IMG/VR virus record: IMGVR_UViG_3300008108_000165 | Location: 1-56,269 of that record | Origin: a virus | Reading direction: 5' to 3' (one strand) | Length of the DNA: 56,269 nucleotides | Shown here: piece after piece, positions 2,277 to 20,031 of the stretch | Numbering within the stretch: position 1 is the first letter of the stretch | Layout of the letters: every line of letters starts with the position of its first letter | Program-made: the position numbers and the translations under genes | Notes under the pieces: model-generated | The model's database searches: none | Told to the model about the DNA's origin: nothing | The model's input: only the letters and a program-made list of their open reading frames with translations

Positions 2277-3407
2277 ATGGAAAATTTAAATAGCGTTTGC
2301 TACGTAGCAAAAATTGATGAAATTAAAGCAATTGAAGGAGCCGATAACATTGTACAAGGTGTTATCGGTGGGTGGAATTGCATTATTAAGAAAGGTGAAC
2401 ATACTGCAGGTGAATTAGTTGTAGTAGCAACTACTGATGCTGTTATCCCTCAAGACTTATCAGATAAAATGGGAGTTACTAACTACCTAAGAAAAGGAGG
2501 TAGAGTAAGAACTGTTAAATTAAGAGGTGTATATTCAGAATGTTTAATCATCCCAACTAAATACATTCCAGGATATGGAGACATGTATAAAGAAGGAGAT
2601 GACATGATGGAAAAATTTGGTATCTTCAAATATGAACCACCAGCAGTACAAGTACAATTAGCTTCAGGTCGTAAAATTAAGTACCATCAAAATCCAAACT
2701 TTGGAGTGTACTATAAATTCCCTAACATTAAAAATGTTAAAGGTATATTTACTGAGGAGGATGAAGTTCAAATCACTCGTAAGTTACATGGTACAAATGC
2801 TCGTTACGGTATTGTAAAGAAAACTAAATTATCGTTTTGGGATAAGGTTAAGAAGTTCTTTGGTTTTGCGGATGAATGGATTGAGTATGAGTATGTTTAT
2901 GGTTCACATAATGTAGAAAAAGGCAGTGACTCACAAGGTTTCTATGATACAGATGTTTGGAGAACAATAGCTGATAAATATTTTATTCAAGATAGATTAT
3001 GGTCGTATGTTAAAACATATGGTCCAGAGATTATTGGAAATGGAGTTATATTGTATGGTGAGATTTATGGTCCTGGTATTCAAAAGAACTATGATTACGG
3101 TTTAAAAGAAATTGAATTTGCAGGATTTGATATTGTGGAAAACGGAAAGTACTTAAATACATATTTAGCTGGGTATATGATTGAAGATATGCTTAACTTA
3201 CCTCACGCACCTGAATTATATAACGGTTTATGGTCTCAAGAAATTCAAGACCGTTATACATTCAATAATAATATTGAGGGAACTAAAGTACCACATGAAG
3301 GTATTGTTATTAAACATGTAAGTGGTGATCGTCATAAAGTGGCAAAGTGTATAAACCCGCAGTATTTAATCTATAGTGAACATAATGACGTTGGTGATAG
3401 CCATTAA
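2277..3407 (+). CDS. RNA ligase, DRB0094/Rnl5-like
   Basis: 376 residues. An N-terminal OB-like domain (about 1-130) precedes a nucleotidyltransferase core. Motif I is TRKLHGTNARYG near residue 163 (the lysine is the expected AMP acceptor). Later blocks include ILYGEIYGPGIQ, then HEGIVIKH (motif IV) and HKVAKCIN (motif V). This arrangement matches the Deinococcus DRB0094 (Rnl5) class that seals nicked or 3'-OH/5'-P RNA. With the polynucleotide kinase at the window start it would form a T4-like RNA repair pair. It has its own promoter and a strong terminator. Confidence 0.85.
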   Translation: MENLNSVCYVAKIDEIKAIEGADNIVQGVIGGWNCIIKKGEHTAGELVVVATTDAVIPQDLSDKMGVTNYLRKGGRVRTVKLRGVYSECLIIPTKYIPGYGDMYKEGDDMMEKFGIFKYEPPAVQVQLASGRKIKYHQNPNFGVYYKFPNIKNVKGIFTEEDEVQITRKLHGTNARYGIVKKTKLSFWDKVKKFFGFADEWIEYEYVYGSHNVEKGSDSQGFYDTDVWRTIADKYFIQDRLWSYVKTYGPEIIGNGVILYGEIYGPGIQKNYDYGLKEIEFAGFDIVENGKYLNTYLAGYMIEDMLNLPHAPELYNGLWSQEIQDRYTFNNNIEGTKVPHEGIVIKHVSGDRHKVAKCINPQYLIYSEHNDVGDSH

Positions 3408-4610: not shown

Positions 4611-5198
4611 ATGAAAAACATTTTTAAGATTAATCCAACAACACTTGAACCTCAACCGTTCAATGTACTTAAAAAAGTAATCATTACAACAGCAATCACC
4701 TCAACTATTTTAAGTTCAATATTTTTATATATTGGATATAATTTAGGTAGTGATGTATTAACAGGTTTATCTGAAGAAGAAAAATTAGTTATTATTCAAG
4801 AACACAATCAATTTTCAGAAGAAAAATTAATTGAACAACTAATCGAGTTAAATGTTAAATTCCCTTATATAGTATTTGCTCAATCAAAACTTGAAACAGG
4901 TAATTTTACAAGTAAAATATTCAGGGAGAACTCTAATTTATTTGGGATGCGTGAAGCCAAACAACGAATAACAACAGCTAGAGGTACAGAAAATAATCAT
5001 GCATATTATGCAAGTTGGGGTGAATCAGTTTATGATTATGCTTTTTATCAATGTCGTTATTTATCTAATATTCAAACTGAAGAACAATATTTTCAATATT
5101 TGGGGCAAAGTTATGCTGAGAATCCAAATTATGTTTCAATATTAAAAGATATGATTGTTAAGGAAAATCTTAAAGCACGATTTGGGTTGTCAAAGTAA
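4611..5198 (+). CDS. Glucosaminidase-family endolysin with signal anchor
   Basis: 195 residues from the ATG at 4611. A hydrophobic segment at about 25-45 (IITTAITSTILSSIFLYIGY) could act as a signal anchor. The catalytic domain has FAQSKLETGNF with the expected catalytic Glu, then NSNLFGMR, ARGTENNHAYYASW and YDYAFYQCRYL, the pattern of FlgJ/LytG-type N-acetylglucosaminidases that cleave peptidoglycan glycan strands. Small membrane proteins follow, so this looks like the lysis module. Its last codons (GLSK-stop) double as the next promoter's upstream box. Confidence 0.85.
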   Translation: MKNIFKINPTTLEPQPFNVLKKVIITTAITSTILSSIFLYIGYNLGSDVLTGLSEEEKLVIIQEHNQFSEEKLIEQLIELNVKFPYIVFAQSKLETGNFTSKIFRENSNLFGMREAKQRITTARGTENNHAYYASWGESVYDYAFYQCRYLSNIQTEEQYFQYLGQSYAENPNYVSILKDMIVKENLKARFGLSK

Positions 5199-5213
5199 AA
5201 ATTTTACATTTAC
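5189..5213 (+). promoter_or_regulatory. Early promoter inside a gene 3' end
   Basis: GTCAA lies within the last codons of the endolysin-like gene; TTTAC follows after 15 nt. Confidence 0.7.
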
Positions 5214-5234
5214 ATCATAATTAAAATAAATACC

Positions 5235-8361: not shown

Positions 8362-8508
8362 ATGAGTAAGTCAAGTCACAAACTACGCTTTGAAGCTCTA
8401 CAAGGATGGTTAGAGCAAACTAAAAAGAACGCTAAATATGGTAAACCAAAACGCGTTATTATTGATGAGGATGTTGATATTCAATGGAAACCAAAAAAGA
8501 AATATTAA
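8362..8508 (+). CDS. Small basic protein (48 aa)
   Basis: Lysine-rich, soluble, with a helical first half (LRFEALQGWLEQTKKN). Overlaps the next gene by 25 nt in another frame. Function unknown. Confidence 0.45.
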   Translation: MSKSSHKLRFEALQGWLEQTKKNAKYGKPKRVIIDEDVDIQWKPKKKY

Positions 8509-8696
8509 CATCTTTTAGAATCAGATATACTCCAGATAATCTGTTAAAATGTCAACTTAGTTACTCACTCAAATCAGTAATAGTTGAAAATAAACATATT
8601 GTCTGTGAGTTAACTGATATGCAAGCTGATTTTGTGCGAACTAATCAACTTAAACTAAACTACATTAAAAAATATATACTAAACACCCAATTATGA
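8484..8696 (+). CDS. Small hypothetical protein (70 aa)
   Basis: Reads METKKEILTSFRIRYTP and ends LNYIKKYILNTQL; the stop overlaps the ATG of the next gene. No recognised motif. Confidence 0.5.
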   Translation: METKKEILTSFRIRYTPDNLLKCQLSYSLKSVIVENKHIVCELTDMQADFVRTNQLKLNYIKKYILNTQL

Positions 8697-9655
8697 GTAA
8701 AGCTAAAGAAGCCAAAAAACAAAATCTATTTTTAAATACTACATTAATGGATTTGATAACATTATTAGACCCATCAGGTAAGTCTAAATATATTAATTTA
8801 TTTGTTGGTTCTATTAAGGAAAAGATGGAACATGACATAGATAAATTAATTGTAGAACATTTTAAAAAAACAGGATTTGAGTGTCCTCAAGCATTACTCG
8901 AATACGACAATATTACTAAACGAATATGGGTGGAGGTGTTATATAATATATTAAATGTGAGTGATATTAGTATATTATATAAATTTCATGATTTGAATGA
9001 AAGACAATTAATTAAAAATAATGATATATCCCAATATAAAACATTAGGTGATTTAACTAATGTAGTTAATATAGCTGAGTTAAAGTTGCAAGATGTATCA
9101 TTAGATAAACAGATTACTATTTTAAATTCGGATGATGAATGGTTAATAATTAGACCACTAACACACCAGGCTTCTATTAAATATGGTTATGGAACTAAAT
9201 GGTGTACATCTATGAAAAATGAGTATGATTATTTCAGACGATATTCAACACGAGGTATATTAATATATTGCTTAAATAGAAATACAGGCGATAAAGTAGC
9301 ATTCTTTAATAATTTAGACCCTGATTATGATAGAGAAGCTAGTTTTTGGAGTGCTAAGGATGAACGTATCGACTCAATGGAAACGGGATTACCATCGTAT
9401 GTAATAGATATAATCAAAACACAAATGGCAGAGCGAAAAACAAACGTTGAACTTCAGAGTGATGAAATAAGAAGATTTGAAGATGAGTATATACAGTCAA
9501 TATATAAAGAAAGAGAAATGCTTGAACCAACAGAGGAAAGAGCAACACGTGTAGAAAATCCAGTTGAGGTAGCACGAGAACATCTCCAACAAGCAATAAG
9601 TCAATGGGCTAATCAACCTAACAACGATACTGACGATATTATTGCAGAAATTTAG
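8693..9655 (+). CDS. WCT-domain phage protein
   Basis: 320 residues. The diagnostic block is YGYGTKWCTSMKNEYDYF (about 163-180), then ILIYCLNRNTGDKVAFF. An upstream segment (LLDPSGKSKYINLF, NDISQYKTLGDL) is also characteristic. These gKWCT proteins are common in large phages and have no known role. A second, much longer protein with the same WC block is at 44.4-47.1 kb. The C-terminus is a charged helical tail. Confidence 0.7.
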   Translation: MSKAKEAKKQNLFLNTTLMDLITLLDPSGKSKYINLFVGSIKEKMEHDIDKLIVEHFKKTGFECPQALLEYDNITKRIWVEVLYNILNVSDISILYKFHDLNERQLIKNNDISQYKTLGDLTNVVNIAELKLQDVSLDKQITILNSDDEWLIIRPLTHQASIKYGYGTKWCTSMKNEYDYFRRYSTRGILIYCLNRNTGDKVAFFNNLDPDYDREASFWSAKDERIDSMETGLPSYVIDIIKTQMAERKTNVELQSDEIRRFEDEYIQSIYKEREMLEPTEERATRVENPVEVAREHLQQAISQWANQPNNDTDDIIAEI

Positions 9656-9666
9656 ATAATTGGTTA

Positions 9667-9691
9667 GGCAAAATAAAGTTCGTACATTTAC
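9667..9691 (+). promoter_or_regulatory. Early promoter
   Basis: GGCAA, 15 nt, TTTAC, then a typical CACAATTAAAATAAAGG leader. Confidence 0.8.
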
Positions 9692-9712
9692 ATCACAATT
9701 AAAATAAAGGTT

Positions 9713-9880
9713 ATGCAAACAATAGAAATAATAGCAATGATATGGGCTGTAATAATATCATTTTATGCCTTAATAGCTAAAGTGAATGGTGTAAATGTAT
9801 TAAGTTTATATCTTATTAAGTTCATATCGTTTATAACTTTTATATGGTTTGGTTATAAACTAATATTATTAATACCTTAA
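9713..9880 (+). CDS. Small membrane protein (55 aa)
   Basis: Almost entirely hydrophobic, two predicted spans (IIAMIWAVIISFYALIA and FISFITFIWFGYKLILL) joined by a short Asn-Gly loop. Directly behind a strong early promoter. Confidence 0.55.
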   Translation: MQTIEIIAMIWAVIISFYALIAKVNGVNVLSLYLIKFISFITFIWFGYKLILLIP

Positions 9881-10378: not shown

Positions 10379-10450
10379 ATGGTAGTATATGTTAATGGAA
10401 TTAAATGTTATACTTTAGAACAAATAAAGTTAGCATTAAAAAGAAAATAG
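10379..10450 (+). CDS. Tiny ORF (23 aa), uncertain
   Basis: ATG 12 nt after the previous stop, reading VVYVNGIKCYTLEQIKLALK, a plausible beta-hairpin plus helix. Too short to be sure. Confidence 0.3.
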   Translation: MVVYVNGIKCYTLEQIKLALKRK

Positions 10451-10478
10451 GTTTGATATTTACCTTTGTGATTAAAAG

Positions 10479-11290
10479 AAGACTAGGACTACGAGTGTGT
10501 AAAGTCTTATTAATACTGCTAGTAGTAGTGTACGCAGCTTCACACATAATTCACATAAAAAGTTGTAGTAATATAAATCCAAAATAGACATTGTTATTCA
10601 ATGTTGATAGTTTGGTTCTCTTGTCTGTTTACATAAAAACATATTGAGAATAGTATTACTACAAATTGTGTTGTTTCTCTGATTTGAGATAAGAGAAAGT
10701 TGCAGTAAGCCTAGTGAATGTGCGGACTAGTTCAACACAAAAATATCAAAATCTCTATCTAATTGTTTTGTAAAAGTTCACGTCAAGTCGTGGTTGTTGG
10801 TTATAAAGTAATCAGTGATGGTGTAGGTAGCACGTTACAAAACATTAGATGATATTCTATACCAATAATAGCATATAGCTTGAAAGAACATTACATTGGT
10901 AGAAGGTATTAAGTCATTGTGAAAATACTATCCCACTAATGTATGTTATACTTGATATAACTGTTAGGATTGTAGATGAATGGAGTATATAACCTAAGTA
11001 ACAATGTACTGTGGCAGCATATAAGACTAGCAAGAGTTCCAGTAGTTGAAATACTACAACGGTGTACAGCAAAGTGTCCTCTATATGCCTCAAACATAGT
11101 AATATGTTTGTAGTAGTTTTGTTGGTAAAACTTTAAGTGTAACAAAACATTGTGCAAAATCCTTGTGGTGAAGATTTAATAAGAAAAAACTGTAGAATAA
11201 AATCTACTAATGTATGAAGTTCAAAACTATACCAATTAATAAAATATTGAATGTATAGAAGTTTGTTTTGTAATACATTATATTTAATTA
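10479..11290 (+). ncRNA. Large structured non-coding RNA candidate
   Basis: About 0.8 kb without a convincing gene but dense in complementary segments. Hand-found stems: AAGACT/AGTCTT (10479/10503); ACATTG/CAATGT (10588/10599); a three-way junction 10666-10740 closed by TTGTGTTG/CAACACAA with inner TTTCTC/GAGAAA and CTAGT/ACTAG; TGTTTTGTAA/TTACAAAACA (10764/10835); TACCAAT/ATTGGTA (10860/10895); GTTATA/TATAAC (10945/10956); GTAGT/ACTAC (11042/11053); CAAACATA-GTAA-TATGTTTG (11091-11110, GNRA loop); GTTTTGTT/AACAAAAC (11116/11141); CTATAC/GTATAG (11227/11253). A second copy of TGTTTTGTAA at 11264 could compete for 10835. Size and phage/tRNA context recall ROOL and GOLLD RNAs; class identity not established. 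A -7-like TATTTAC lies at 10457. Confidence 0.6.
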
Positions 11291-11313
11291 TTAACAATTT
11301 AAACTAAAACAAT

Positions 11314-11490
11314 ATGATAACATTTTTATGGATGCTATATTTAGCATTGACTTTACTTTTTACTATAAGTATTACATATCAAGTACTAATAAATTTAGTT
11401 CATAAACAAAAAGATGATACTTATAGTTTTATAATGCGTTTAATAACTTGTTTATTATGGTCTATTTGGTATTTTTATTATTTAAATTGA
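11314..11490 (+). CDS. Small membrane protein (58 aa)
   Basis: Two hydrophobic segments (LWMLYLALTLLFTISITY and LITCLLWSIWYFYYL) separated by a polar HKQKDDTYS loop. Leader is A-rich. First gene after the structured RNA region. Confidence 0.55.
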   Translation: MITFLWMLYLALTLLFTISITYQVLINLVHKQKDDTYSFIMRLITCLLWSIWYFYYLN

Positions 11491-12185: not shown

Positions 12186-12230
12186 AAAAAATGAAACGTG
12201 ACAAAGTAGACGGAGGTAAATAAGTTGGTT

Positions 12231-12256
12231 GGCAAAACTATCGTTCGTACATTTAT
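12231..12256 (+). promoter_or_regulatory. Early promoter
   Basis: GGCAA, 16 nt, TTTAT, then CACAATTAAAAATAAAGG leader. Confidence 0.65.
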
Positions 12257-12278
12257 ATCACAATTAAAAATAAAGGTT

Positions 12279-12647
12279 ATGAATAAACGCGAATTTATAT
12301 TAAATACCTTAATTGGGTATAAAAATAACCCAGAAACATGCGCATATGAAAATGATAGATGTTTATATTTAACATCTGACGGGCGAAAATGTGCTGTTGG
12401 TAAACATTTAAAAGAAGGTGAACATCAATATTGTCATGGGGATGTAGATATTTTATTATATGACTATAATAGTGATGATATATTCACTGATGAAGCCAAG
12501 CAATATGATTTATCAATAAGAGAGTGGGATCTAATGCAGAAATACCACGATTATATTGCTCAAGATAAAAATATAAGTAGGTTGAATAATATTGTTACAT
12601 CTTTAGAAGAGATAACTAAATTATCGTTCCCCGAACTAAAATATTAG
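12279..12647 (+). CDS. Conserved hypothetical protein with Cys/His residues
   Basis: 122 residues from the ATG at 12279, chosen because it follows the promoter leader AAAGGTTATG. Contains CAYENDRCLYLTSDGRKCAVG and GEHQYCHG. The phrase RKCAVGKHL is typical of a small phage/bacterial family of unknown function. The C-terminal half is helical. Confidence 0.6.
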   Translation: MNKREFILNTLIGYKNNPETCAYENDRCLYLTSDGRKCAVGKHLKEGEHQYCHGDVDILLYDYNSDDIFTDEAKQYDLSIREWDLMQKYHDYIAQDKNISRLNNIVTSLEEITKLSFPELKY

Positions 12648-12656
12648 AAATCATAT

Positions 12657-12778
12657 AGTCAGGTGGTGGAATTGGTAGACACACCCTTAGTAATGGGGAT
12701 TCAACTCAATGTACAAATGTATGAGAGAAACTATTACCGTAGATATATTGAACACAGGTTCGAATCCTGTCCTGACTA
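12657..12778 (+). tRNA. tRNA-like gene with long central region
   Basis: Acceptor AGTCAGG/CCTGACT, type-II-like D-arm GTGGAATTGGTAGACAC and T-arm ACAGG-TTCGAAT-CCTGT are all intact. The stretch between D-arm and T-arm is about 75 nt, and by hand I find only a CCC/GGG stem with a 7-8 nt loop around TTAGTAAT, not a clean anticodon arm. CCA is not encoded. Anticodon undetermined; could be a tRNA with an insertion or a tRNA-like decoy. Confidence 0.5.
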
Positions 12779-13203: not shown

Positions 13204-13301
13204 AGTCAGGTGGCGTAGATGGTGAAACGCAGAGCGGATGTGGATATCGCTTACTTTGAGACCACATAAAAAGGATACAGGTTCGAATCCTGTCCTGACT
13301 A
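13204..13301 (+). tRNA. tRNA-like gene
   Basis: Same acceptor and T-arm as the gene at 12657. D-stem GCG/CGC. An AGCGG/TCGCT stem with a 9-nt loop (ATGTGGATA) is the best anticodon-arm candidate, followed by a CTTT/AAAG variable-arm stem. An ATGTGG/CCACAT pairing competes with it. The loop is two bases longer than normal, so decoding identity is unclear. Confidence 0.5.
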
Positions 13302-13317: not shown

Positions 13318-13416
13318 ATGAAAAACGATAACTTAAAAACAACAATCGGGTTAGTATTGGCATTGGCATTAGTATATGTTATAGGTCAGATATTACTTAG
13401 AATGAATTTAATTTAG
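13318..13416 (+). CDS. Small membrane peptide (32 aa)
   Basis: One hydrophobic span (IGLVLALALVYVIGQILL) between two tRNA-like genes; its TAG overlaps the first bases of the next tRNA-like gene. Confidence 0.4.
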   Translation: MKNDNLKTTIGLVLALALVYVIGQILLRMNLI

Positions 13417-13605
13417 TCAGGTGGCGAAATTGGTAGACGCTACGAGTGGGTGTTACACTAATACATCCGTAACTAAGGTATGACTCTATGTGGGTGGCTG
13501 AACGTACTGCAAACGGTGTGATAATTCTGGGCTTGAATCCAGTGTATCCTACTACAAGCCTTTGATTAATGACCACATTTACAGGTTCGAGTCCTGTCCT
13601 GACTA
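13415..13605 (+). tRNA. Very long tRNA-like gene with a second T-arm-like hairpin
   Basis: The ends again form AGTCAGG/CCTGACT, D-arm GCGAAATTGGTAGACGC and T-arm ACAGG-TTCGAGT-CCTGT, but the element is 191 nt. Inside lies a T-arm look-alike CTGG-GCTTGAAT-CCAG followed by CCTACT, which can pair with AGTGGG upstream. This suggests a tRNA inserted in a tRNA, or a fused pair. Anticodon not resolved by hand. Confidence 0.4.
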
Positions 13606-13621
13606 CAAAACAAATTTGATT

Positions 13622-13646
13622 GGCAAAATAAAATTATTACCTTTAC
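13622..13646 (+). promoter_or_regulatory. Early promoter
   Basis: GGCAA, 15 nt, TTTAC, then CACCACAATTAATAATTAAGG leader. Confidence 0.8.
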
Positions 13647-13668
13647 ACCACAATTAATAATTAAGGTT

Positions 13669-13869
13669 ATGAATAAATCAGAACAAAACAAGGCAAAGGT
13701 ACAAAACATCATCAAGATGTTAAACGAAATAAACGTTGATGGTGAAACAATGGAATATATCCTCAACCAAGTGGGTATGGAACAACAAATGTTGAAACAA
13801 TTAATAATGAGTTCACCAATTGAATGGTCGATTAGATTATTAAACGAGAAAGTAAATTTACCTAAATAA
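13669..13869 (+). CDS. Small helical protein (66 aa)
   Basis: Reads NKSEQNKAKVQNIIKMLNEI then METMEYILNQVGMEQQM-like helices (exact text at residues 27-45) and LIMSSPIEWSIRLLNEK. Probably a three-helix protein. It is the first gene after its promoter. Unknown function. Confidence 0.55.
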   Translation: MNKSEQNKAKVQNIIKMLNEINVDGETMEYILNQVGMEQQMLKQLIMSSPIEWSIRLLNEKVNLPK

Positions 13870-13936
13870 TGCGAGGCGGAGTAAAGAGATAGATATAAGA
13901 ATAAATAGACGAATAATATCCAGTAATAAACAAGAT

Positions 13937-14110
13937 ATGAAAATCAAAGAAACATATATTGTGTGGAGTGAGAGATTTAATCAATTGGTTAAACTCCATT
14001 ATACCACATACCGAGATGGTAGCGGGGCTAGATACTTCATCGAAGTGAACCTAAATATAGTTGCAATAACCATAGATGAAGCCCACGAATTATTAGACCA
14101 ATATAATTAA
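13937..14110 (+). CDS. Small hypothetical protein (57 aa)
   Basis: A beta-rich start (KETYIVWSERFNQLVKL) and a C-terminal helix (DEAHELLDQYN). Precedes the DUF1737-like gene by 11 nt and likely shares its transcript. Confidence 0.5.
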   Translation: MKIKETYIVWSERFNQLVKLHYTTYRDGSGARYFIEVNLNIVAITIDEAHELLDQYN

Positions 14111-14121
14111 TAATCAATAAT

Positions 14122-14298
14122 ATGGAAATTCATAGCGATTATAAAGTAATTCGAACAACATTATTATCCGAGCTGGAGAAGGATGTTAATACATATCTCA
14201 ATAAGGGATGGCAACTACAAGGAGGAATATCAACCGTAATGGGTCATGGCGACACCCAACATTATTTACAAGCCGTTTGTATTAAACGAGAAGTATAA
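14122..14298 (+). CDS. DUF1737-like protein (58 aa)
   Basis: YKVIRTTLLSELEKDVNTYL, then NKGWQLQGGIS and HYLQAVCIKRE: the e-V-n-x-GW-x-x-GG...YxQA pattern of the DUF1737 family of short proteins found in bacteria and phages. Function unknown. Complete, usual length for the family. Confidence 0.75.
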   Translation: MEIHSDYKVIRTTLLSELEKDVNTYLNKGWQLQGGISTVMGHGDTQHYLQAVCIKREV

Positions 14299-14409
14299 TT
14301 ACTCACAAAAATAAATGCAAAATATCGCGTAAAGATGCGCAAAAAACGCAAGTAAATGATATGATGTGAAAATTTGTTAAGTGTGAACTAAGTGATGGAT
14401 GTGTGGAAA

Positions 14410-17293: not shown

Positions 17294-17470
17294 ATGAAAA
17301 CGATTATAATAAAGCTATTCATAATAGTGTGTTGTGGTGAATACAGTAATGGAAATTACCACTACGAAGCTAAATCAACAAGTGACACTTCAACATATAG
17401 TGTTTACAGCACAACTAAATACAATGTTGGAGATACGATTCAATATAAATTTGTTGGTTTGTCAAAGTAA
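17294..17470 (+). CDS. Small possibly exported protein (58 aa)
   Basis: A short hydrophobic N-terminus (TIIIKLFIIVCC) precedes a Ser/Thr/Tyr-rich mature part (TYSVYSTTKYNVGDTIQYKF). The C-terminal GLSK-stop is spelled by the next promoter's GTCAAAG box. Lipid attachment at the Cys pair is possible. Confidence 0.5.
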   Translation: MKTIIIKLFIIVCCGEYSNGNYHYEAKSTSDTSTYSVYSTTKYNVGDTIQYKFVGLSK

Positions 17471-17485
17471 TTGTGTTATATTTAC
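17461..17485 (+). promoter_or_regulatory. Early promoter inside a gene 3' end
   Basis: GTCAA within the final codons of the preceding ORF, 15 nt, TTTAC. Confidence 0.75.
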
Positions 17486-17507
17486 ATCACAATTAATAAA
17501 TAAAACA

Positions 17508-18197: not shown

Positions 18198-18201
18198 CGT
18201 T

Positions 18202-18297
18202 ATGAGTAACTATAATAAATTTAATCAGCAAGTAGAAGATTTTATAGGTTATTTGTTAATAGCACTATTTATTTTTGCTATAATAATATCTATATAA
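18202..18297 (+). CDS. Small membrane peptide (31 aa)
   Basis: Polar start (SNYNKFNQQVEDFIG) and one hydrophobic helix to the end. Lies 4 nt after the preceding stop. Confidence 0.4.
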   Translation: MSNYNKFNQQVEDFIGYLLIALFIFAIIISI

Positions 18298-18306
18298 ACG
18301 TGGTTA

Positions 18307-18331
18307 GTCACAATTCATATATTATATTTAC
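18307..18331 (+). promoter_or_regulatory. Early promoter
   Basis: GTCAC, 15 nt, TTTAC. Confidence 0.7.
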
Positions 18332-18350
18332 ATCGTAATAAATAAATGAT

Positions 18351-18494
18351 ATGAACGATATTAAAAATGTAGATGATTTAATTAAAGTCTTATTAGAAAA
18401 TCTAGAGTTAGCTTACAAATTAAAGTTTGAAGGTGAAAATGAAACACAAGACTTAGGTAGTTTAATAGATAGTTTAAATGATCAGTTTAGGTAA
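18351..18494 (+). CDS. Small helical acidic protein (47 aa)
   Basis: NDIKNVDDLIKVLLENLELA and LGSLIDSLNDQFR helices; follows its own promoter and ends at a merged terminator-promoter. Unknown. Confidence 0.5.
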   Translation: MNDIKNVDDLIKVLLENLELAYKLKFEGENETQDLGSLIDSLNDQFR

Positions 18495-18500
18495 GTAGGG

Positions 18501-18532
18501 GTGGTGGGTCAAAACCCACCACTTATCTTTAT
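18501..18532 (+). terminator. Merged terminator-promoter
   Basis: 9-bp stem GTGGTGGGT/ACCCACCAC; GTCAA spans the tip; TTTAT after 15 nt. Confidence 0.8.
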
Positions 18533-18550
18533 CTCATAATAAACAAAGCA

Positions 18551-18697
18551 ATGAAAATAATAATTCAAACTATAATAATGATAGGATATGTAGGAATATA
18601 TCCACGAGAACTACAAATACTAGCACCATCTGTATTTATGATAATAGGGGTATTAATTTATATCTTAACTGAAGTAGTATATAATAAATTAAAGTAA
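18551..18697 (+). CDS. Small membrane protein (48 aa)
   Basis: Two hydrophobic segments (IIIQTIIMIGYVGIY and SVFMIIGVLIYILTEVVY). TAATG overlap with the next gene suggests coupling. Confidence 0.5.
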   Translation: MKIIIQTIIMIGYVGIYPRELQILAPSVFMIIGVLIYILTEVVYNKLK

Positions 18698-19505: not shown

Positions 19506-19596
19506 AGGCTGGTATGGGTCTCGAACCCATTTAAGAGATATTTCTAATCTATCCCTACGTACCGTCCCACTGTGAAGCCGTTTACAGTGACCAGCC
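19506..19596 (-). tRNA. tRNA-like gene with an extra hairpin
   Basis: On the minus strand: acceptor GGCTGGT/ACCAGCC and T-arm ATGGG-TTCGAGA-CCCAT are perfect. A stem GGATA.../TATCTC around ATTAGAA could be an anticodon arm with anticodon TAG (Leu). An additional CACTGT/ACAGTG hairpin sits just after the acceptor. Different acceptor from the other five, so an independent tRNA lineage. Confidence 0.5.
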
Positions 19597-19601
19597 ATTC
19601 G

Positions 19602-19710
19602 TAGTCAGGACAGGATTCGAACCTGCAAACACTCCATCGGGTATTTTAAGACTAAGCCAGAGATAAACTCCTATGCTGGTCTGATTTGGCTACCATTCCG
19701 CCACCTGACT
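19602..19710 (-). tRNA. tRNA-like gene with long central region
   Basis: Minus strand: acceptor AGTCAGG/CCTGACT and T-arm CAGG-TTCGAAT-CCTG as in the plus-strand copies. The centre holds a nested CCAG/CTGG hairpin inside AGAC/GTCT and a second AAATAC/GTGTTT stem. No clean anticodon arm by hand. Confidence 0.45.
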
Positions 19711-19715
19711 ATTTC

Positions 19716-19850
19716 TTATTTTACTTCTCTTATACGAGAAATATCAGTTTTTAATTTTTTAGCTGCTTTTGTTTTATTCCAAGCTTTAATTGTTTTAGTT
19801 GGGTTATCTATAGAACGATATTCAATTTTACTTTTTATTAATCTTTTCAT
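19716..19850 (-). CDS. Small basic protein (44 aa)
   Basis: Minus-strand ORF between two tRNA-like genes: KRLIKSKIEYRSIDNPTK, TIKAWNKTKAAKKLKTDISR. Strongly basic and helical, suggesting RNA or DNA binding. Same unit as the tRNA-like genes. Confidence 0.5.
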   Translation of the reverse strand: MKRLIKSKIEYRSIDNPTKTIKAWNKTKAAKKLKTDISRIREVK

Positions 19851-19865
19851 AACTTTAAATCTTAG

Positions 19866-19967
19866 TAGTCAGGACAGGACTCGAACCTGTATGAAGAGAT
19901 TAATTTTTGTGGTATAAGTTTCTCTTCTAACCAACAATTAGCGTCTAACCAATTCCGCCACCTGACT
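19866..19967 (-). tRNA. tRNA-like gene, possible anticodon GTT
   Basis: Minus strand: acceptor AGTCAGG/CCTGACT, D-arm GCGGAATTGGTTAGACGC, T-arm ACAGG-TTCGAGT-CCTGT. CTAA-TTGTTGG-TTAG gives a 7-nt loop with GTT (Asn). A 7-bp GAAGAGA/TCTCTTC arm with a 21-nt loop lies in the variable region, far longer than in a normal tRNA-Asn. The most tRNA-like member of the set. Confidence 0.6.
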
Positions 19968-20006
19968 ATATATTTGTATATACTTATTATCTTATTTAAC
20001 GTAGGT

Positions 20007-20031
20007 GTAAATGTAAGAAGGTTTCCTTGCC
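20007..20031 (-). promoter_or_regulatory. Minus-strand early promoter
   Basis: On the minus strand GGCAA, 15 nt, TTTAC (a second GGCAA lies 5 nt further upstream). It points toward the tRNA-like cluster. Confidence 0.7.

Follow-up and report, generated by a model that had tools for sequence, protein, structure and literature searches.

The locus and its non-coding RNA

The DNA analyzed here (the window, 56,269 nucleotides) is an IMG/VR virus fragment of 56 kb from a freshwater phage. This phage is a myovirus, and its baseplate wedge protein shares 46% identity with the counterpart in Flavobacterium phage immuto. Its plus strand harbors a structured non-coding RNA of ~735 nt (Table 1). A sequence-only reading of this DNA had placed a structured RNA at 10479 to 11290; the RNA is there, but those boundaries did not hold, as conservation gives 10447 to 11182, both ends being approximate and inferred, with UUAGGUU at the 5' end and the hairpin P10 at the 3' end. 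In a sibling record (G001, 171 kb), the RNA is 100% identical and a 127-nt stretch, 11200 to 11326, is missing; since the RNA ends at ~11182, this deletion falls outside it. TGTTTTGTAA does recur at 11264, but the proposal that this copy can compete for the same partner was unsupported, as the repeat lies outside the RNA and inside the stretch absent from the sibling.

Coding signal was absent in all six frames, with codon scores negative over nearly all of 10450 to 11300, and the neighboring genes gave positive scores by the same scoring. The earlier statement that there is no credible gene was therefore borne out on both strands, and a conserved open reading frame occupying the region, which would have refuted the RNA, is not there by codon scoring. 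Coding, pseudogene and intron readings were rejected on the negative codon scores and the lack of an Rfam match. The region contains seven perfect stems of at least 8 bp within ~90 nt, against 1.9±1.3 in 200 dinucleotide shuffles (maximum, 6). Folding energy gave a z of about -2 to -3 for the whole region, -3.9 for 10562 to 10850 and about -4.3 for two subdomains; by itself, this is weak-to-moderate evidence, since some coding stretches reach a z similar to that of the whole region. We no longer read TACCTTTG as a TAnnTTTG promoter, since it belongs to the RNA and is conserved with it.

Table 1. Features of the RNA, the window and RNA-carrying records (window positions unless a record is named; slashes separate helix arms)
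Feature	Position	Strand	Observation
Structured non-coding RNA	10447-11182	+	Conserved blocks in homologs; no coding frame; sibling deletion 11200-11326 outside
PK2, 5' strand UAGGUU	10448-10453	+	Proposed pairing with AACCUA (10991-10996), 5' end to 3' module
5' module	10453-10749	+	Closed by P0 (10453-10461/10741-10749); P0 A-U to G-C in L163 and L158
P1	10468-10554	+	10468-10474/10547-10554, variable inner hairpin; covaries
P2	10563-10664	+	10563-10573/10654-10664, 11 bp, variable inner arms; conserved, 9 homologs; domain z -4.3
P3 and P3a, three-way junction	10666-10740	+	P3 10666-10673/10733-10740, in 9/9; P3a hairpin 10674-10680/10692-10698
PK1	10686-10755	+	P3a loop GAGAU (10686-10690) with AUCUC (10751-10755); pseudoknot candidate
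P4, long-range stem	10757-10850	+	10757-10762 and 10764-10773 with 10835-10850; invariant in 8 homologs; z -4.4
P5	10860-10901	+	10860-10866/10895-10901; ACCAA/UUGGU in 8 homologs
P6 and inner P6a	10915-11006	+	P6 10915-10920/11001-11006; C-G to U-A in L148
P7	11017-11088	+	11017-11023/11082-11088; 8 homologs, two pairs with two-sided changes, zero mispairs
P8, 8-bp hairpin, GNRA loop	11091-11110	+	Two-sided changes at 5/8 pairs; loop GUAA or GUGA
P9	11116-11148	+	11116-11123/11141-11148; GTTTTG/CAAAAC vs GTTGTT/AACAAC, two two-sided changes
P10, terminal hairpin	11157-11177	+	3' of conserved AUUGUGC; two-sided changes at 6/7 pairs
tRNA-like genes	12657-12778, 13204-13301, 13415-13606	+	
tRNA-like genes	19601-19710, 19865-19967	-	
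~50-70-nt repeat	9653-9722, 12218-12287, 13608-13677, 258-307, 5181-5230, 17454-17502		
GOLLD in carriers of the new RNA	G059:290088-290486, G060:140928-141354, G061:29192-29618, G057:1635-2020		
Shared protein of unknown function	L211, L230, L319		16, 634 and 630 nt downstream of the RNA

Homologs define a modular RNA family

The family comprises ~11 independent members with collinear blocks and helices in common, namely, the window phage, the isolate Leptolyngbya phage Lbo-JY46, whose accession is PP438436.1, and a further nine contigs or pairs of contigs of up to 310 kb. Searching with a gapped version of the 10-bp P4 stem uncovered L148, L163, L158, L155, L153 and L161. Single-sequence covariance models confirmed these matches, as did blastn and nhmmer blocks in collinear order; the 5'-module single-sequence model gave E values of 1e-11 to 1e-14 against its best homologs. 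Block scans contributed further members, two adding L211 and L230 and a third L313/L315. A blast of L230 led to Lbo-JY46, positions 8411 to 9003, an unannotated intergenic gap. When named phages were compared with the region by blastn, only chance-level pieces were seen, except for one short true piece in Lbo-JY46 that was recognized as genuine only later. A model of the 3' core (R3, P7 to P10), built from seven sequences, scored all seven, with 126.6 bits for the window, and found two members outside its training set, L155 (82 bits, E 6e-20) and G057 (78 bits, E 3e-20), the latter being the remainder of the L158 contig. Searches of eight named large phages with the same model, immuto and Mel-JY01 among them, gave zero matches. 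Two GC-rich 16-mers matched only the sibling record and chance sites, and the one match in a scan of bacterial genomes lay in coding sequence and was rejected. We are nearly certain that this is a real, conserved, structured RNA family that is new to Rfam; it is not described in the open-access literature searched, subscription papers being outside the scope.

The RNA consists of a 5' module (P0 to P3a) and a 3' module (P4 to P10), either of which occurs alone, and in both a conserved core carries outer arms that vary freely. L313/L315 have only the 5' module, and the 3'-core model found nothing elsewhere in these records. L155 and Lbo-JY46 have only the 3' module, and the RNA of L161 stops past P5.

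Conserved helices and covariation

As seen in Table 1, the RNA is built of helices P0 to P10 plus P3a, which recur across members in unchanged order. The 8-bp stem closing a three-way junction (P3), the 10-bp long-range stem (10764-10773/10835-10844, in P4), the 8-bp GNRA hairpin (P8, loop GUAA) and the 8-bp stem P9 had all been named by the sequence-only reading and are present, whereas the 11-bp stem P2 was missing from its list. P3 and P4 are conserved in the homologs with zero contradictions. P1 varies between GTGAATTA/TAATTCAC and a 13-bp GTGGACTATAAAG/CTTTATAGTCCAC in L313, with a single C-C mismatch in L163/L158, and the outer pair of P2 changes from U-A to C-G in the latter two. P3a shows two-sided changes at 5 of 6 pairs. 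P4 closes a variable multi-branch region with an inner length of 61 to 98 nt; the invariance of P4 and P5 is no proof of pairing on its own. P6 is lost or substituted in both L153 and L161 and unassigned in L319, P9 could not be assigned in L148, and P7 is flanked by the near-invariant GUGGCAGCAUA and UAUGCC.

A lack of compensatory changes in homologs had been set beforehand as a refuting result; such changes were seen at P8 and P9. In a composite of 92 pairs and seven sequences, 98.3% of cells were paired, and two-sided changes occurred at 22 of the 92 pairs, compared to 8.6±2.0 in shuffled controls (0/500) and 0 to 4 in slid controls. However, the helix arms of the composite were hand-extracted from anchored segments, which biases it towards pairing. 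P8 may therefore be regarded as the best and least biased covariation test, given its ungapped 33-column alignment of eight sequences, with 100% pairing, two-sided changes at five of eight pairs, 0/500 shuffles and a loop that is always GNRA.

Two long-range contacts, PK1 and PK2, are candidates only. For PK1, a GAGA or GGGA loop with a UCUC linker was found in 9/9 homologs having the 5' module, without covariation, and it thus remains a candidate. For PK2, TTAGGTT is matched by AACCTAA in L211 and L230, 6 of 7 positions agree in the window, and the pairing is visible in L148 and weaker in L163 (the sites in L148 and L334 were read by eye). Among members with a single module, the strand has drifted in the 5'-only L313 (CTTGGTT) and the 3'-only L319 (AATCTAA), but not in L155.

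Comparison with GOLLD, ROOL and other large RNAs

None of the 4227 families of Rfam 15 matches the RNA. A cmscan of the RNA region at E<=10 gave no GOLLD or ROOL match, and OLE, HEARO and group I and II introns were likewise unmatched; a covariance-model check against the first four had been proposed along with the suggestion of a new ROOL/GOLLD-like class. That suggestion was correct within the limits of sequence evidence, with homologs in phages and often beside tRNAs, and ROOL/GOLLD-like behavior (abundance, oligomers) is an inference; the traits at issue are a 14-mer RNA cage for GOLLD and, for ROOL, an octameric cage and very high abundance. With OLE and HEARO the likeness is one of size class only, and no Rfam match links them to the RNA. 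OLE and HEARO RNAs occur in genomic settings other than that of the new RNA.

The GOLLD model (RF02032) had no match in the window, and the same search returned 315.7 bits in G059 and 238.9 bits in G060/G061, away from the new RNA, as well as a match of 134 bits in G057, below the Rfam cut-off and again away from it. GOLLD at other sites in these carriers means that GOLLD and the new RNA are separate genes in one genome. GOLLD co-occurs with the new RNA in four carriers, and its model found none in 30 related records without the new RNA; the association is no more than suggestive, because G060 and G061 are almost the same and many of the 30 records are mere fragments. The ROOL model (RF03087) matched 0 of 13 carrier records at E<=10, a weaker test than that for GOLLD, as the named control genomes held no ROOL; cmscan of the individual loci gave no ROOL match either.

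GOLLD and ROOL are found in phages near tRNA islands and form RNA-only cages by cryo-EM, their function being unknown (PMC12286853). In GOLLD, the 3' region is universally conserved and the 5' region less so; ROOL, carried by phages and prophages, has pseudoknots and one variable linker region (PMC12286853). The new RNA resembles GOLLD as a large phage RNA with many helices, often near tRNAs, and also has a conserved 3' and variable 5' plan (the 3'-only L155 and L319, variable 5' arms), but its conserved motifs and sequence differ. It resembles ROOL (about 570 to 660 nt) in size, phage carriage, tRNA proximity, pseudoknots (candidates only in the new RNA) and a variable region, but its modules can stand alone and the ROOL model is unmatched in carriers. 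The same setting, similar size and shared 3'/5' plan would also fit a very divergent branch descended from GOLLD or ROOL and past the reach of the Rfam models. We consider this improbable, because neither model matches in the RNA or the window under the searches above and the GOLLD model does detect real GOLLD (316 and 239 bits) elsewhere in carriers.

Distribution among related phages

Close relatives of the window phage were collected via the baseplate protein. The RNA was absent from them in a nucleotide search (50 records) and in model searches (38), siblings included, with only the sibling G001 matching; G011, at 14.9 bits in the model search, was taken as chance. In G005, one of these relatives, the flanking genes are there but the RNA is not. 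As the closest phage relatives lack it, the RNA is dispensable. This patchy distribution, with G005 and the lone modules, could point to a ribozyme or a mobile self-processing element, such as a decayed intron, moving between phages. Such an origin is unlikely, however, as there is no intron or ribozyme family match and no catalytic signature, the RNA is intergenic rather than intragenic, and no linked endonuclease gene was noticed.

Other features of the window also occur in relatives. A repeated sequence of ~50 to 70 nt (TTGG...TTCGTACATTTATATCACAATTAA...AAGGTTATG) lies directly upstream of small genes and is probably a shared promoter or leader. Further long ORF-free stretches (0.5 to 1.3 kb) were observed in the window at 13870 to 14376, 18198 to 18696 and 19535 to 20031, and in relatives at L124:4844-6134 and L115:5009-5804.

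Neighboring tRNA and protein genes

tRNA or tRNA-like genes lie within 1 kb of the RNA in seven phages, at 0 to 9 nt in three. L148 has a tRNA-Ile 33 nt upstream and a tRNA-Met 0 nt downstream, L155 a tRNA-Arg 7 nt downstream and L313/L315 a tRNA-like gene 8 to 9 nt downstream; in L230, L158, L163 and L211 the distances are 123 to 850 nt. No such gene was found within 2 kb in L153, L161 and L319, nor within about 1.4 kb in the window, where the nearest tRNA-like gene is 1.5 kb away. This proximity suggests, by inference, that the RNA may mature together with tRNAs.

The five tRNA-like genes of the window have a common acceptor stem and T arm (AGTCAGG...GGTTCGARTCCTGTCCTGACTA) and long, different, non-tRNA middles, and none of the five was detected by ARAGORN in normal mode. 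The same T arm and acceptor is present in up to 9 copies per genome, in 18 of the 28 phage records searched, and these genes thus have the look of a tRNA-mimic family that has expanded. At 2277 to 3407, the window encodes a phage RNA ligase with a PHA02142 OB-fold domain, which might act on the tRNA-like genes.

A protein of unknown function (motif LTGREIEEIWRKE...NQKQFK) is common to three loci and 31 to 37% identical among them; a cyclic-phosphodiesterase reading of this gene was weak and was dropped. Its position 16 to 634 nt downstream of the RNA, together with genes within tens of nucleotides downstream in several loci, raises the possibility of a long regulatory leader acting in cis. Yet the downstream features vary among homologs (tRNA-Met, tRNA-Arg, tRNA-like genes, various ORFs), which makes a leader very unlikely.

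Interpretation

Overall, these results demonstrate a large, conserved and structured non-coding RNA, one of a family of modular RNAs that large tailed phages carry and Rfam 15 lacks. Stems arising by chance in AT-rich intergenic sequence, or in a dead gene, have only the moderately unusual folding energy in their favor, and this reading is already refuted by the conserved homologs and compensatory changes. As a whole explanation, we prefer a phage-tRNA-linked, self-folding RNA that serves as an oligomeric particle or RNP scaffold in the niche of GOLLD and ROOL, with a probability of roughly 0.75; expression and oligomers are inferred.

According to this proposal, one transcript would carry the RNA together with neighboring small genes and tRNA or tRNA-like genes of the phage, for which there is no transcript evidence. 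It might then be excised beside tRNAs, with tRNA-processing enzymes setting its ends, as inferred from the 0- to 9-nt spacing in three phages. The RNA would fold unaided into its core, the part supported by covariation, with PK1 and PK2 probably joining the ends. Finally, by analogy only, it could build up in the course of infection, either as an RNP scaffold or as a homo-oligomeric particle of RNA. Whether it works in a GOLLD/ROOL-like manner, as a particle or scaffold made during infection, appears to us an even question, with function and expression inferred by analogy. More tentatively, and at somewhat less than even odds, it may form a giant phage RNA class of its own, the third and unrelated to the other two, self-assembling into a protein-free particle and used alongside GOLLD and phage tRNAs within one infection, with modules as separately inherited blocks. 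The particle reading would rest on analogy alone, as there is no direct evidence of proteins, ligands or oligomers of the new RNA.

To our knowledge, giant phage RNAs such as GOLLD and ROOL are extremely rare, and what they do is still unresolved. With the new RNA, the number of such classes would rise to three. An unrelated class in the same niche, in some cases sharing a genome with GOLLD, would indicate that this niche is real and convergent, and the natural 5'-only and 3'-only forms, together with the isolate phage Lbo-JY46 (3'-only), make structure and function directly testable.
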